Assembly (NCBI RefSeq): GCF_009674585.1 | Contig: NZ_WKJP01000001.1 | Span: 1,364,001 to 1,428,000, forward strand | Length of the DNA stretch: 64,000 nt | From: Haloferax marinisediminis | Lineage (GTDB): Archaea; Halobacteriota; Halobacteria; Halobacteriales; Haloferacaceae | Reading direction: 5' to 3' | Shown here: positions 18,864 to 26,557 of the stretch, one piece after another | Numbering within the stretch: position 1 is the stretch's first letter | How the letters are laid out: every line of letters begins with the position of its first letter | The notes under the pieces: model-generated | The model's database searches: none | Seen by the model: only the letters and a program-made list of their open reading frames with translations | What the model was told of the DNA's origin: nothing | Position numbers and translations under genes: made by a program

Positions 18864-19052
18864 TTACGCGGTCTGAGCGCCCTTCTTCCGGGTGATGTAG
18901 CCCGCGATGCGGTTGCGGACGCTCTTCGACTCCACCGTCGTCAGTTGACTGACGCTGTCCTTGTTCGTCTCGAAATCCGTGTTGAACGCCTGCGGGTACC
19001 GTTCCAGCAGGATGTTACCAAGCTGCTTGACGTACTTGGGCTTGATTGCCAT
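18864..19052 (-). CDS. rps17e: Ribosomal protein S17e
   Basis: 62 residues beginning MAIKPKYVKQLGNILLERYP, the conserved core of archaeal/eukaryotic S17e, followed by FNTDFETNKDSV and VRNRIAGYITRK. Part of the small ribosomal subunit. It lies 24 bases after the DUF447 gene in the same direction; a TATA-like ttttag overlapping the DUF447 stop could give it its own promoter. Confidence 0.95.
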   Translation of the reverse strand: MAIKPKYVKQLGNILLERYPQAFNTDFETNKDSVSQLTTVESKSVRNRIAGYITRKKGAQTA

Positions 19053-19076: not shown

Positions 19077-19724
19077 CTAAAACGATTCGTTCCGTCTTTG
19101 CGAGGCCCGTTCGCGCCACCCTGTCAACTCGTCGATTCGTGCGAACGCGTCGCGCTCTCTCGGTCCGCCGCACTTCTCGACCGTCTCTGCGAAGTACGCG
19201 AGTCGAGAGAGCAGTTCGTCGGTGTCGAACGCGGGCACGTCGAGGCGAGAGGCGGCGACAGTCGCGTCGACGACGGCACCGAACCCACGGTTGATGGTGA
19301 ACGGGCGTGTCGCCTCGACACCAGCATCGGCCGGCCTGAGTTCCCAGCGTTCCCACCGTGTTCCGCCGTCTTCACCCGACTCCACCTGTGTCACTTCGAC
19401 TTCCACCCACGCGTCGGCAGAGTCGAGGACAGGCGACTCCGTCTCTCGAATCGTCATCGCAGCCTCCACGAAATCCACAGGGTCGGTGACGAACTGGACG
19501 ACGCCGCGACCCTGTCGGTGGAAGTTCCGCCGCGTTCGAGTGTTGCCCCACGTCGTCGCCGTCACCGGTTTGTCGGCGTCCGCGGGTGCGTGGAGACCGA
19601 GTGCGGCGACGTTCCACAGGTCGTTCGGCCCGAGTGTGGCCACGACCGATTCGGTGACGCCGCGGAGGTCGACCGGCCACTCGACTTCGGTTTCGGACTC
19701 GTCCGCACCCGGTTCGGCAGTCAC
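19077..19724 (-). CDS. DUF447 family protein, probable FMN-binding split barrel
   Basis: 215 residues starting with GTG at 19724, which overlaps the stop of the CitG-like gene as GTGA. Recognisable segments are ATLGPNDLWNVAALGLHAP near the N-terminus and TTWGNTRTRRNFHRQGRGVVQFV. Structures of archaeal DUF447 proteins are known with bound FMN (recalled, not searched), so this is probably a flavoprotein of unknown reaction. Last of the cofD/Dus-like/CitG-like/DUF447 set. Confidence 0.75.
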   Translation of the reverse strand: MTAEPGADESETEVEWPVDLRGVTESVVATLGPNDLWNVAALGLHAPADADKPVTATTWGNTRTRRNFHRQGRGVVQFVTDPVDFVEAAMTIRETESPVLDSADAWVEVEVTQVESGEDGGTRWERWELRPADAGVEATRPFTINRGFGAVVDATVAASRLDVPAFDTDELLSRLAYFAETVEKCGGPRERDAFARIDELTGWRERASQRRNESF

Positions 19725-20578
19725 AACGGGACCCCCCGCTCTAGCGCGACGAACGTCGCCGCACAGACGATATCGGCCGTCGTCCCGGGATTGATTCCGT
19801 CGGCGACGAACGACTCGGCCAGTTCCTCGGCCTCGTCGAGGTCGGAGACGGCGGCCGCACGGTCCATCACGTCGCGCGCGACTGCCTCGCCGTGGTTCGT
19901 CACGACGAGTGTGTCCGGTTCCTCGGTGAGCAACTCCAGAAACGCCCGCGCGACTCGGTCGGTGACTGGCCCCTCGTCGGCCAGAATCGACTCTGCAGCG
20001 CGGAACGTGCGGGCGAAGCCACCGGTCCACTCACGGGCGTTGGCGTCTCCCTCGGCGCTGAGTTCCATCACGTCGAACAGCGTGAGCGACTGTGCACGCA
20101 GGGCCGACTCCGCATCTGCACCGCGGCGGACGTCGAGGTCAGGGGCGTCCTCCGGCGGGTCGCCCACGGCCACGTCGACGTGTTCGAACGCCCGATAGAA
20201 CGACACCGCGTCGTCGACAGTCGTCGATTCGGCGACGTCGGTCACGCCCACCGGCGAGAGTTCGCCCACTGCAGCTGCCCGAACGAGCGGCACGAGAAGC
20301 AGGAGACAACCGAACTGTGTGTTGCCCCCTCCCTGTCTGCTCATGCCGGCGACGGCCGTCTCGAACGCCTCGCCGACTGCCGCGCCATTCTCGGCACGTC
20401 GAAGCCCGTCCGCAGAGCCGACGGCCCCAGTCAGGAAGTGCTCGAAGTGGAGGTCAGAGAGGTCACGACGGCGGTCCACGTTGCCCGGTTTTGGTGTTCC
20501 GGCGACTTCGAGGAGTAAGGCGAGTTCGGCGTGTCGTGCCGGGCCGAATCCTCGGTCTGTGACTGGATGCGTCGTCAT
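19721..20578 (-). CDS. CitG-like triphosphoribosyl-dephospho-CoA synthase family protein
   Basis: 285 residues. AGTPKPGNVDRRRDLSDLHF resembles the N-terminal KPGLV-type motif of CitG/MdcB, followed by MSRQGGGNTQFGCLL and, near the C-terminus, ADGINPGTTADIVCAA. CitG makes the prosthetic-group precursor of citrate lyase, but no citrate or malonate lyase is near, so a related phosphoribosyl transfer on another substrate is more likely. ATG overlaps the preceding gene as ATGA. Confidence 0.75.
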   Translation of the reverse strand: MTTHPVTDRGFGPARHAELALLLEVAGTPKPGNVDRRRDLSDLHFEHFLTGAVGSADGLRRAENGAAVGEAFETAVAGMSRQGGGNTQFGCLLLLVPLVRAAAVGELSPVGVTDVAESTTVDDAVSFYRAFEHVDVAVGDPPEDAPDLDVRRGADAESALRAQSLTLFDVMELSAEGDANAREWTGGFARTFRAAESILADEGPVTDRVARAFLELLTEEPDTLVVTNHGEAVARDVMDRAAAVSDLDEAEELAESFVADGINPGTTADIVCAATFVALERGVPL

Positions 20579-21357
20579 CGGGCGGACACCCCCGATTCGT
20601 CGGTTGAGTGTGTGTGGTCTTCGTTTTCGAACCACTCGTCGACGGCCTGCTCGACTCGACGCAGAACCGCCGGGTCGTCGCTTGGCCGACCCACGCTGAC
20701 GGCGTCTGCACCGTACCGAAGGTACTCGTGTGCGGTCGCTCTGTCTCGGACGCCGTTGTTGGCGACGACGAACAGGTCAGGTTCGGCAGCGACGATGTCG
20801 GCGATGACAGACTCGGAGTCCATCGCGTCGACGTGAAGCCACGAAGCGCCTGAGTCTGCGAGTGTCGGGGCGAGTTCGGGAAGGGAGACGCCGTCGACTT
20901 CGGCGCGGACCTTCACACCGACCGGTGCGTCGGCTTCGGCCGCGGCAGCGACGTACTCGACGAGTCGGTCGGTGTCGCGGAGGAGTGACTCACCACAACC
21001 GATAGCGCAGAGTTCCTCCTGTCGGCAGTGTGCGTTCACTTCGACACCAGCACCGTGGTCGGCGCAGACCGCTGCGACGTCCCGAATCGGGGCTGCTGAC
21101 GTGGCGCGCACGTTGACGGCGACGAAGCAGTCTATCTCCTCGACTGCAGTGAGTTGGTCTGCGACGAACGCGACTGGGTCGTCGGTGAGGAACTCTGAGC
21201 GTCCCCGAGCGACGAGTGCGCGGGCAGCCTCCTGTGTAGTCTGGTCGATGGCGACGCCACCGAGGAACGCCGCGCCGACGTGTGGGGCGGCCGTGCGGGC
21301 CCAGTCGGCGTCAGATTCGCCGCTGAGGCTCGCCACAGCGAGCCGAGGGGAGAACAT
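20575..21357 (-). CDS. Dus-like FMN TIM-barrel protein
   Basis: 260 residues. Resembles tRNA-dihydrouridine synthases: EVNAHCRQEELCAIGCGESLLRD corresponds in order to the catalytic-Cys region and the G-x-LL-x-D loop, VGVKVRAEV to the substrate-binding strand and ADAVSVGRP to the FMN phosphate site. It is shorter than DusA/B/C (about 310-345) and appears to lack their C-terminal helical tRNA-binding domain, so a small-molecule role is possible. The cofD stop overlaps the start region; ATG 21357 is preferred over GTG 21360. Confidence 0.72.
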   Translation of the reverse strand: MFSPRLAVASLSGESDADWARTAAPHVGAAFLGGVAIDQTTQEAARALVARGRSEFLTDDPVAFVADQLTAVEEIDCFVAVNVRATSAAPIRDVAAVCADHGAGVEVNAHCRQEELCAIGCGESLLRDTDRLVEYVAAAAEADAPVGVKVRAEVDGVSLPELAPTLADSGASWLHVDAMDSESVIADIVAAEPDLFVVANNGVRDRATAHEYLRYGADAVSVGRPSDDPAVLRRVEQAVDEWFENEDHTHSTDESGVSAR

Positions 21358-22349
21358 CACGACACCTCCGCGAGTGCATCTTCGACCGCGCGAGCGACCC
21401 GTGCGGCGTCTTCAGGGCCGTCGATTCGGGTGTCTGTCCGGACGACCGGTCTGTCGAGGTCGGTCCCGTCGTCGTCGTCGAGGACGAACGCGTCCGCGAA
21501 GGGGTACGCCTCGGCGACGCCGGCCGTCGAAGGGTCGTATCCCACGCCGGCCATGAGGTCTGCGGCGGGACCGGAGAACACCTTGTCTTCGACGAAAGGT
21601 GAGACAGCGACGACGGGCGTTTCGGCAAGCGCATCGCGGAATCCGTCGAGGGCGAGCATCGGGCCGATGCTCGTGACGGGGTTCGACGGGCCGACGACCA
21701 CAGGGTCGGAGAGTGCGTCGGCGACCTCGTCGGTGATTCGTGCGTCGTCTGCACCGCGGAACTCGACGTCGTGAACCGCGGGTTCGGCACGGCGGTGGAC
21801 CCAGTACTCCTGAAAGTGCATCGTCCCTTCGTCGGTGTGGACGAGCGTCGCCACGGGGTCGTCGCTCATCGGGAGGAGCGAGACGCTGAGGTCGAACGCA
21901 TCCGCGAGGGTCCGTGTGACTTCGGTGAGTGAGCGCCCTTCGTCGAGAAGCGACGTGCGAGTGATGTGGACTGCGCGGTCGCGGTCGCCGATTTCCATGA
22001 ACTCCGCGATGCCAGAGAAGCGTCGCCAACGGGCGATGTCGCGTCCGGCGGTCTGTGCGTCGGCAGAGAGATATCGCGGCCCGAATTCGAGACCCGCGGC
22101 GTCGGCGAGCCGGTGGAGTTCGTCGTCGGTTTCGGTGGTGTCGTCGGCGATGCCCCACCAGCGGTCAGTATCGAGGACACCGCCGCCCCAGAAGAGAACA
22201 GTGTCCACGTCGGGACAGACGAGGTGGCCGCCGAGTTCCACGTCGTCACCCGTGTTGGCGACGACAGTCGTCTCGGCAGGGTCGAACACCTCGCCAGCAC
22301 CGTCGAGGAGTTTGGGGGTGCCCGTGCCCCCAGCGAGGAAGGTTACCAT
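21357..22349 (-). CDS. cofD: 2-phospho-L-lactate transferase (coenzyme F420 synthesis)
   Basis: 330 residues. Joins the phospholactyl group to FO to give F420-0. The start [17 protein letters not shown] carries the conserved GGTG nucleotide motif; [19 protein letters not shown] binds the substrate; [15 protein letters not shown] is a family signature near residue 220. First gene of a minus-strand set of four overlapping genes whose other members may share a flavin or F420 theme. Confidence 0.92.
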
Positions 22350-23436: not shown

Positions 23437-24603
23437 ATGACCGCCGTCAAAGACAGCGTCCACGACTACATCACACTGGACCCCGTGGCCGCGGAACTCG
23501 TCGATACGCCCGAGTTCCAACGACTTCGGCACATCAAGCAGCTCTCGACGGTTCGTCTCGTCTACCCCTCTGCGAGTCACACCCGATTCGAACACAGTCT
23601 CGGCGTCTACCACCTCGCCTCATGCGCCCTCTCGCACCTCGGCATCGACGGTGACCGTGCCGCACACGTCCGTGCTGCTGCGCTCCTCCACGATATCGGT
23701 CACGGGCCGTACGGCCACCAGACAGAAGACCTGATTCGCCGTCGAACCGGCCGCGACCACGACGAGATTCACCACCTGCTCGACGGCACAGCAGTCGGTG
23801 ACGTGCTCGAATCACACGGCCTCTCTCCGTCGCGCGTCGCCGACCTCGTCGCCGGCGATAGCGGACTCGGCCAACTCGTCTCGGGTGAACTCGACGTCGA
23901 CCGGATGGACTACCTCGTCCGCGACGCCCACCACACGGGCGTCCCCTACGGCACTATCGACCACGGCCGACTCGTCCGCGAACTCCGCTATCGCGATGAC
24001 GAACTCGTCCTCGCCGAAGGCAACGTCCAGACCGCAGAGTCACTGCTCCTCGCTCGGGCACTGATGAACGGAACCGTCTACCGACACCACGTCTCGCGAA
24101 TCGCCGGTGCGATGCTCGAACGGGCGTCTGAACGACTCGTTGACGATGCCGTCCCCCTCGAAGAGTTCGTCCGGATGGCGGACCACGATTTGCTCGTCGC
24201 CCTCGACACGCACGTCCCAAAACTCGGACAGCGCATCGAGTGCCGGAACCTGTACAAGCGAGCCGTCTGGGCACCCATCGATGCGGTCCCGACGAACGTG
24301 GTCGACTTCGACGCCGAGGCCGCACGAGCGGCAGCGCGTGAAATCGCCGACATCGCCGACGTCCCGTTCGATTCGGTCATCGTCGACGCGCCGTCACGGC
24401 CGCGAATCAAGGAATCACGGTCACGCGTGGTCGTCAACGGGGTCGTCCGGCGACTCGAAGACGCGTCCGAACTCGTGGGGGCACTCCGTGCTGCTGAGCG
24501 GGCTCAGTGGCGACTCGGTGTCTACGCCCCGGAAGCGGTTCGCGACGAGGTTGCGGCCGCCGCCGTCGACGTCCTCGACGTACCTGTGCGTGCGACGAAA
24601 TAG
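23437..24603 (+). CDS. HD-domain phosphohydrolase (dNTPase/SAMHD1-like), paralogue 1
   Basis: 388 residues. Metal-binding HD signature in order: HTRFEHSLGVYHLA, LLHDIGHGPYGH and LDVDRMDYLVRDAHHTG, as in COG1078 proteins related to dGTPases and SAMHD1. A dNTP triphosphohydrolase or nucleotide phosphatase activity is inferred. Starts MTAVKDSVHDYI. Highly similar along its length to the protein at 25334, so the two are a duplication with a small membrane gene between them. Confidence 0.87.
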   Translation: MTAVKDSVHDYITLDPVAAELVDTPEFQRLRHIKQLSTVRLVYPSASHTRFEHSLGVYHLASCALSHLGIDGDRAAHVRAAALLHDIGHGPYGHQTEDLIRRRTGRDHDEIHHLLDGTAVGDVLESHGLSPSRVADLVAGDSGLGQLVSGELDVDRMDYLVRDAHHTGVPYGTIDHGRLVRELRYRDDELVLAEGNVQTAESLLLARALMNGTVYRHHVSRIAGAMLERASERLVDDAVPLEEFVRMADHDLLVALDTHVPKLGQRIECRNLYKRAVWAPIDAVPTNVVDFDAEAARAAAREIADIADVPFDSVIVDAPSRPRIKESRSRVVVNGVVRRLEDASELVGALRAAERAQWRLGVYAPEAVRDEVAAAAVDVLDVPVRATK

Positions 24604-25333: not shown

Positions 25334-26557
25334 ATGACGACCATCAAGGACAGCGTCCACGACCACATCGAAGTCGAGGGCGCGGCCGAGGCCCTCCTCG
25401 ATACGCCGGAGATGCAACGACTTCGGCGTATCAAGCAGTTGGGGACGGTCCAACTCGTCTACCCATCCGCGAACCACACGCGGTTCGAACACAGCCTCGG
25501 CGTCTACCACCTCGCGTCCCGTGCCCTCTCACACCTCGGTATCGAAGGCGACGCCGCCGCACACGTCGAGGCCGCAGCCCTCCTCCACGACGTCGGTCAC
25601 GGTCCCTACAGCCACAACATCGAGGACGTGACGCACCGGCACACTGGGAAGTACCACGACGACGTCGCGGGACTCGTCACGAGTGGAAACGTCGGCGAGA
25701 CGCTCGAAGAAGAAGGTCTCGACCCGAAGCGCGTCGCCGACCTCATTGCAGGCGACGGCGAGTTCGGCCAACTCGTCTCGGGTGAACTCGACGTCGACCG
25801 GATGGACTACCTCGTTCGTGACGCCCACCACACGGGCGTCCCCTACGGCACCATCGACCACGAGCGACTGATTCGTGAACTCGCGTTCGTCGACGGCGAA
25901 CTCGTCCTCGCCGAAGGCAACGTCCAGACGGCGGAGTCGCTGCTCCTCGCTCGGGCACTGATGAATCCGACCGTCTACCAACACCACGTCGCGCGTATCT
26001 CGAAGGCGATGCTCCGGCGGGCGTCCGAGCAACTCCTCACCGAACCGGATATCTCGGCCGACGGACTTCGCCGGATGGACGACTACGACCTGTTGGTCGC
26101 ACTCAGGCTCACCCCCTCGACCAGCGAGTTCGCCGAGCGCCTCGCCACTCGCAATCTGTACAAACGGGCCGTCTGGGCAGAAATCCCGGACGTTCCCGAC
26201 TCGGTCATCGACGCTGACCACGAGACGAAAGCGGCGTTCGAACGGGAGATTGCAGACCGTGCAGACGTCGCCACCGACTCGGTCATCCTCGACGTCTCTT
26301 CGCGGCCGTCGATGACGGAGTCGTCGTCGCGGGTGATGGTCAACGGAGAGATTCGACAGTTAGAACGCGAATCACCGCTCGTACAGGCACTCCGGACCGC
26401 CCAAGAACAGCAGTGGCGACTCGGCGTCTACGCGCCGAGAGGAGAGACAGACCGCGTCGGGCGCGCCGCCGCAGACGTTCTGGGACTCGATATCGACGGG
26501 GCACTCGTCTCGGAGGTCAGACGCAATCTCAACACGACGCTCGACGAGTTCGAGTAG
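25334..26557 (+). CDS. HD-domain phosphohydrolase (dNTPase/SAMHD1-like), paralogue 2
   Basis: 407 residues with the same metal site as the gene at 23437: HTRFEHSLGVYHLA, LLHDVGHGPYSH, LDVDRMDYLVRDAHHTG, and a long identical stretch around GVPYGTIDH and AEGNVQTAESLLLARALMN. Likely a nucleotide phosphohydrolase; whether the two copies differ in substrate or regulation cannot be told. It has its own start MTTIKDSVHDHI and probably its own promoter. Confidence 0.87.
   Translation: MTTIKDSVHDHIEVEGAAEALLDTPEMQRLRRIKQLGTVQLVYPSANHTRFEHSLGVYHLASRALSHLGIEGDAAAHVEAAALLHDVGHGPYSHNIEDVTHRHTGKYHDDVAGLVTSGNVGETLEEEGLDPKRVADLIAGDGEFGQLVSGELDVDRMDYLVRDAHHTGVPYGTIDHERLIRELAFVDGELVLAEGNVQTAESLLLARALMNPTVYQHHVARISKAMLRRASEQLLTEPDISADGLRRMDDYDLLVALRLTPSTSEFAERLATRNLYKRAVWAEIPDVPDSVIDADHETKAAFEREIADRADVATDSVILDVSSRPSMTESSSRVMVNGEIRQLERESPLVQALRTAQEQQWRLGVYAPRGETDRVGRAAADVLGLDIDGALVSEVRRNLNTTLDEFE

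Follow-up and report, generated by a model that had tools for sequence, protein, structure and literature searches.

We report that a four-gene operon of the haloarchaeon Haloferax marinisediminis is built from two modules: cofD, a gene of coenzyme F420 synthesis, together with a gene for a barrel like that of tRNA dihydrouridine synthase (Dus), here module A, and a CitG-like gene together with a DUF447 gene, here module B. The operon occupies positions 19077-22349 of a 64,000-nucleotide stretch of contig NZ_WKJP01000001.1 (positions 1,364,001 to 1,428,000), hereafter the window. We consider it fairly probable that it unites F420 synthesis with the synthesis of a methanopterin-type carrier, and that both coenzymes serve Mer, the F420-dependent methylene-tetrahydro(methano)pterin reductase. 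Module B, along with an unlinked mptG gene, would produce a one-carbon carrier whose side chain derives from ribofuranosylaminobenzene 5'-phosphate (RFAP). Mer would use this carrier and F420 alike, and its proposed need for both would explain why the operon pairs the two modules.

All four genes lie on the minus strand. The first, cofD (21357-22349; TIGR01819, PF01933), encodes 2-phospho-L-lactate transferase of F420 synthesis, and its product passes the TIGR01819 equivalog at 390.9 bits (cutoff 257.45). Its stop codon overlaps by four nucleotides (GTGA, 21357-21360) the start of the gene for the Dus-like protein, a short flavin mononucleotide (FMN) TIM barrel of 261 residues (20575-21360) that scores 36.6 bits for PF01207 and 138.6 bits, below the cutoff of 218.7, for TIGR00736, the MJ0144 family. 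The barrel gene overlaps in the same manner (ATGA, 20575-20578) with the gene for the CitG-like enzyme (19721-20578; 285 residues; PF01874, 215 bits), which belongs to a methanopterin-associated clade. This gene in turn overlaps (GTGA, 19721-19724) with that for the DUF447 FMN split-barrel protein (19077-19724; 215 residues), which passes both PF04289 (74.7 bits) and PF20766 (61.7 bits) over gathering scores of 24 and 24.8. The positions, the strand, the three overlaps as read from the sequence, and the assignment of cofD to F420 synthesis all bear out an original prediction that had been made for this DNA from its letters.

The gene order is not due to chance, and comparison across genomes resolves it into the two modules. 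Of 157 Halobacteriota genomes searched, 151 have DUF447, 150 have CitG, 153 have cofD, and 112 have the TIGR00736 barrel. CitG-like and DUF447 genes are neighbors throughout Halobacteriota. For the haloarchaea, we counted genes as adjacent when at most 350 nucleotides separated the ends of their hidden Markov model matches; by this measure CitG and DUF447 adjoin in 25 of 26 genomes, with 515 nucleotides between them in the remaining one. The cofD and barrel genes adjoin in 28 of 29 (and lie on different contigs in the other), and barrel and CitG genes do so in just 21 of 26. Three haloarchaea (G008, G049, and G104) keep cofD and the barrel together with neither CitG nor DUF447, and among the control genomes, S. 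acidocaldarius has CitG, DUF447, and MptG with neither cofD nor the TIGR00736 barrel. These counts and patterns lead us to pair the barrel with cofD and CitG with DUF447. The modules sit apart in some genomes of family f4, the haloarchaeon G017 has cofD-CitG-DUF447 without a barrel, and a genome from a non-haloarchaeal family (G001) shows the full cofD-Dus-CitG-DUF447 order of the window. In G017, the locus (L122; G017:C1:1393500-1400500) displays a clean loss of the barrel between cofD and CitG. For three GC-rich loci (L019, L020, and L043), some open reading frame calls were out of frame and gene positions were taken from tblastn; the L019 row was excluded from alignments A4 and A6.

The link between module B and methanopterin comes from other organisms. 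A DUF447 profile scan of genome contigs led to bacteria from several phyla, and every examined bacterial genome carrying DUF447 also has a PF01874 gene. In Moorella, Formimonas, and Desulfosporosinus, the tetrahydromethanopterin (H4MPT) island has the order MptG-AfpA-dihydropteroate synthase (DHPS)-like (TIGR00284)-DUF447-MtdB-ATP-grasp-(FhcA)-Mch-ligase (MptN-like)-CitG-MfnB, the AfpA member being a flavoprotein. Rhodopirellula has DUF447 flanked by MptG and a class-I glutamine amidotransferase of the PabA/TrpG family, and two Acidobacteria, in which CitG adjoins Mch, have it flanked by MptG and a DHPS-like enzyme; a Synergistaceae genome encodes, in its H4MPT island, a CitG domain fused to DHPS itself. 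The annotation of plasmid-borne islands in Aquabacterium and Phyllobacterium shows the same gene set. Judged by gene order in these two and in the methylotroph islands, mch-orf5-orf7-fae and orf19-orf20-afpA-orf21-orf22 (PMC3615186), the CitG-like gene would be orf7 and the DUF447 gene orf22. In bacteria, CitG-like and DUF447 genes are thus solidly linked to H4MPT biosynthesis. Specialists probably know of this link already; our literature searches on DUF447 or CitG with methanopterin, and on methanogenesis marker 9, returned nothing direct, and an earlier notice of the bacterial link is likely.

The haloarchaeal arrangement resembles the methylotroph islands (PMC3615186) in its CitG-like and DUF447 genes and in the shared MptG family. 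It differs in that the genome lacks an H4MPT-type DHPS, the pair is joined to cofD and the Dus-like barrel, and the carrier is believed to be folate. No homolog of the Dus-like barrel was found in 13 bacterial H4MPT island loci. These islands do hold a HisA/HisF-like barrel (L175:12774-13472 and L176:11635-12342), which we rejected as a relative of the Dus-like barrel for want of any similarity. A second parallel is found in methanogens. Methanosarcina has marker 9-CitG-DUF447-DmrX, where DmrX, the dihydromethanopterin reductase (TIGR02700, 410 bits), comes directly after DUF447, likewise in L012. This operon shares the CitG-DUF447 order and a preceding barrel of the same family, but the methanogen barrel is extended at its C terminus by a Cys-rich marker 9 domain (TIGR03277), absent from the haloarchaeal barrel, and cofD is usually encoded elsewhere.

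Within the haloarchaea, module B is associated with Mer by joint loss. MptG and DUF447 each occur in 161 of 165 Halobacteriales; both are absent from G008, G049, and G104, and each from one fragmented genome (MptG from G199, DUF447 from G263). CitG is missing from the same three genomes and present in G199. Mer, tested in 30 haloarchaea, gave an orthologue-class match (288-332 bits) in 27, all of which also have MptG and DUF447; the three without such a match are again G008, G049, and G104, the last with just a 133-bit Mer relative. All three keep Mch and cofD. In a tree of CofD and barrel sequences, G104 is sister to G123, a carrier of the full set, and a single clade of the three genomes is rejected (p value of the approximately unbiased test, p-AU, 0.0002); the joint absence of MptG, CitG, DUF447, and Mer therefore arose at least two times. 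The haloarchaeal Mer passes the NF002619 equivalog (464.2 vs 276 bits) and reaches 297.5 of 348.7 bits for TIGR03555; its gene stands directly behind cofE, elsewhere in the genome than the cofD operon. The haloarchaeal MptG passes TIGR00144 (172.2 vs 113.5 bits), and its gene has no informative conserved neighbors in haloarchaea.

In methanopterin, the aryl group is attached to a ribitol that also bears an alpha-linked ribose 5-phosphate, and the product of MptG is a ribofuranosyl arylamine phosphate. To our knowledge, no enzyme has been assigned to the opening of the ring to ribitol or to the alpha-ribosylation. We propose that DUF447 and the CitG-like protein probably account for these two steps, ribitol formation and alpha-ribosylation, respectively. 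DUF447 appears suited to reductive ring opening because its relatives bind FMN and its fold neighbors include flavin reductases; with reduced FMN (FMNH2), it would open the ribofuranosyl ring to ribitol, the hydride acceptor being an aza-quinone methide formed from the para-amino group. The CitG-like enzyme would next add an alpha-ribofuranosyl 5-phosphate, a reaction to which it appears suited because CitG makes an alpha-riboside on dephospho-CoA. Since haloarchaea are without TIGR00284, attachment of the pterin would require FolP in place of an H4MPT-type DHPS; alternatively, the product would not be a pterin.

The original prediction described the CitG-like protein as a phosphoribosyl-CoA enzyme; membership in PF01874 stands, whereas the scores for the TIGR03125 and TIGR03132 equivalogs (CitG and MdcB; 17.1 and 21.9 bits vs 272.3 and 282.35) speak against a triphosphoribosyl-dephospho-CoA synthase. 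Archaeal, haloarchaeal, and H4MPT-island CitG proteins group together in a tree, apart from true CitG (lyase-linked, beside a CitX-like gene, with the motif GAHxDM) across a 100/100 branch of length 2.3. The window protein likewise has the motif PKxGNV.R.HDF..D rather than PxPGLV.R..xGAH.DM, and the haloarchaeal locus lacks citrate or malonate lyase genes, in keeping with the earlier remark that no citrate lyase is seen near the operon. What remains in common with CitG and MdcB is the Pfam family and, plausibly, alpha-ribosyl transfer chemistry; by this analogy, the protein would be a ribosyl(-phosphate) transferase. The DUF447 model (predicted local distance difference test, pLDDT, 92.3) matches 2iml, 2nr4, and 2ptf best and flavin reductases next. 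The titles of these three PDB entries name FMN, as the original prediction had said of solved relatives, and by its likeness to them the DUF447 protein is predicted to bind FMN. It would act as a ring-opening reductase of a ribofuranosyl arylamine.

The Dus-like barrel of module A is a different case. Its model (pLDDT 92.9) is nearest in fold to Dus, dihydropyrimidine dehydrogenase, and dihydroorotate dehydrogenase (DHOD), and it ends after the barrel, near residue 250, covering residues 2-244 of the 308 in Dus 3b0p; the barrel is therefore short and without the C-terminal Dus domain, as first suggested. It has the Dus fold and an active-site Cys, which lies in an NAHCRQ motif at the Dus/DHOD position; the motif is conserved in our alignments and intact in G008, G049, and G104. 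The protein is related to methanogenesis marker protein 9 over the N-terminal part of the latter. Many methanogens have, immediately before CitG-DUF447, a gene for a Dus-like barrel whose Cys-rich C-terminal part is TIGR03277 (L017:5210-6346, L002:4574-5677, L018:3952-5058, and L003:2877-4079); this domain has no match in the Dus-like protein of the window. A marker 9 protein from a genome of family f21 (L011:3862-4812) retains the Cys-rich domain, but its barrel has lost NAHCRQ and is not recognized as Dus-like.

Gene position and fold make the barrel a speculative candidate for an enol reductase of archaeal F420 synthesis. It would saturate the enolpyruvyl group en route to F420, either as CofX, the archaeal dehydro-F420-0 reductase that has been postulated (PMC6450877), or by converting phosphoenolpyruvate to 2-phospholactate, which some archaeal CofC/D pairs are argued to use (PMC8764529); an enol-group reductase would fit both routes. 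The C-terminal dehydro-F420-0 reductase of mycobacterial FbiB is FMN-dependent and acts at the step postulated for CofX (PMC6450877), a role only predicted for the barrel, but it has a nitroreductase fold fused to a glutamate ligase, in contrast to the Dus/DHOD-type TIM barrel encoded beside cofD. Two observations weigh against this assignment: some archaeal CofC/D pairs prefer 2-phospholactate, so that no CofX would be needed (PMC8764529), and cofD is found unaccompanied by the barrel in G017 as well as in several other families. Of the gene deletions that the original prediction called for, one already exists. Haloferax volcanii lacking HVO_2478 (COG0042), presumably the barrel orthologue given its numbering next to cofD (HVO_2479), grows more slowly in defined medium only (0.0075 vs 0.0133 per h; PMC3017900). 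We count this phenotype in favor of the overall proposal, together with the lack of dihydrouridine in H. volcanii tRNA (PMC2584109).

How far the four genes belong together can be read in several ways. Under the original prediction, all four genes would work in a single route to a new flavin, deazaflavin, or pterin, with its steps in line. Three 4-nucleotide overlaps within one operon and the identical four-gene order in G001, outside the haloarchaea, speak for it; even so, we regard it as very unlikely, given that the modules have been independently lost and separated and that bacterial H4MPT islands hold CitG and DUF447 without a barrel homolog. Conservation of the neighborhood across archaea, which had been suggested as a check, holds within modules, and the scattering that had been named as a refutation is seen between them. 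The broader coenzyme idea survives in its pterin and F420 options, while nothing indicates a new flavin. Less probable still is a chance assembly of housekeeping genes, with the barrel acting as a tRNA dihydrouridine synthase and the CitG-like protein as a genuine triphosphoribosyl-dephospho-CoA synthase. Fold and Pfam assignments would agree with such a reading, but H. volcanii tRNA contains no dihydrouridine (PMC2584109), and if the same is true here, the barrel does not have this tRNA-modifying function in Haloferax; moreover, the barrel lacks the C-terminal tRNA-binding domain, and the CitG-like protein fails both equivalogs, falls in a separate clade, and has a different motif. The barrel may instead belong with CitG-DUF447, as does marker protein 9 in methanogens, with its place beside cofD in haloarchaea being secondary and unconnected to F420. 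The usual methanogen order, with cofD elsewhere, favors this alternative, to which we give a real though minor chance. It is countered by the barrel that stays beside cofD, with NAHCRQ intact, in the three genomes without MptG, CitG, and DUF447, and by S. acidocaldarius, which has those three genes and no barrel.

Several findings count against a methanopterin-type carrier that serves Mer. Haloarchaea are described as using tetrahydrofolate without methanopterin-specific enzymes, with a different identity given to the MptG homolog HVO_2628 and Mer (HVO_1937) taken to depend on folate (PMC8305020). The haloarchaeal MptG falls short of the stricter equivalog NF040726 (182.7 of 328), and TIGR00284, the H4MPT-type DHPS, was not found in haloarchaea, where it gave only weak partial matches. 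Mch was considered as a member of the co-loss set and rejected, since G008, G049, and G104 all retain it; Halorutilus salinus (L152; G159/G301), conversely, has MptG, CitG, DUF447, and Mer with no Mch match, in a genome 92% complete where a gap is possible. Mch is thus uncoupled from the RFAP module, and the product of MptG, DUF447, and CitG would be tied to Mer and not to Mch. Finally, the co-loss comprises three genomes and about two events, and it could be indirect. Consistent with the missing DHPS, the uncoupled Mch, and the assignment of folate as carrier (PMC8305020), MptG, the CitG-like protein, and DUF447 may have been inherited from a methanogen-like ancestor and now make an RFAP-derived product that is not a carrier, with the Mer-like enzyme using folate and the co-loss reflecting a general loss, for example of methionine synthesis. 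We judge this rather unlikely: Mer is a one-carbon reductase, and on at least two independent occasions it disappeared together with precisely these genes, whereas Mch and cofD persisted. We favor an operon that joins F420 synthesis to an RFAP-derived carrier. The most complete version of that proposal, in which most haloarchaea make a methanopterin-like carrier beside folate through MptG, DUF447, and the CitG-like enzyme, Mer uses it with F420 for methyl supply, and the barrel is the archaeal F420 enol reductase, is offered tentatively and is unlikely to hold in every part.

The surroundings of the operon can be described briefly. A ribosomal protein S17e gene (18864-19052, minus strand) starts 24 nucleotides downstream of DUF447, and the two possibly share one transcript. 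Upstream of cofD lie two tandem paralogues for HD-domain-like phosphohydrolases on the plus strand (23437-24603 and 25334-26557; 64.6% identical), and a gene of this kind is also found near cofD in a Methanocellales contig (L107:473-1669).

The gene families and the bacterial H4MPT association are of kinds already known; what is new is the presence of the module in haloarchaea, the finding that it was lost jointly with Mer, and its combination with genes for F420. The analysis ties methanogenesis marker 9, an orphan, to coenzyme genes, puts forward a candidate for CofX, the reductase postulated in archaeal F420 synthesis, and proposes on mechanistic grounds a gene for each of two steps in methanopterin synthesis, namely ring opening to ribitol and alpha-ribosylation. 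The role of F420 in haloarchaea has been called enigmatic (PMC8305020), and the coenzyme would gain a job. Because MptG, the CitG-like gene, DUF447, and Mer are jointly lost, we link the RFAP-derived product to Mer, and such a product, tied to an F420-dependent, methyl-forming reductase, would revise one-carbon metabolism in a large archaeal class.

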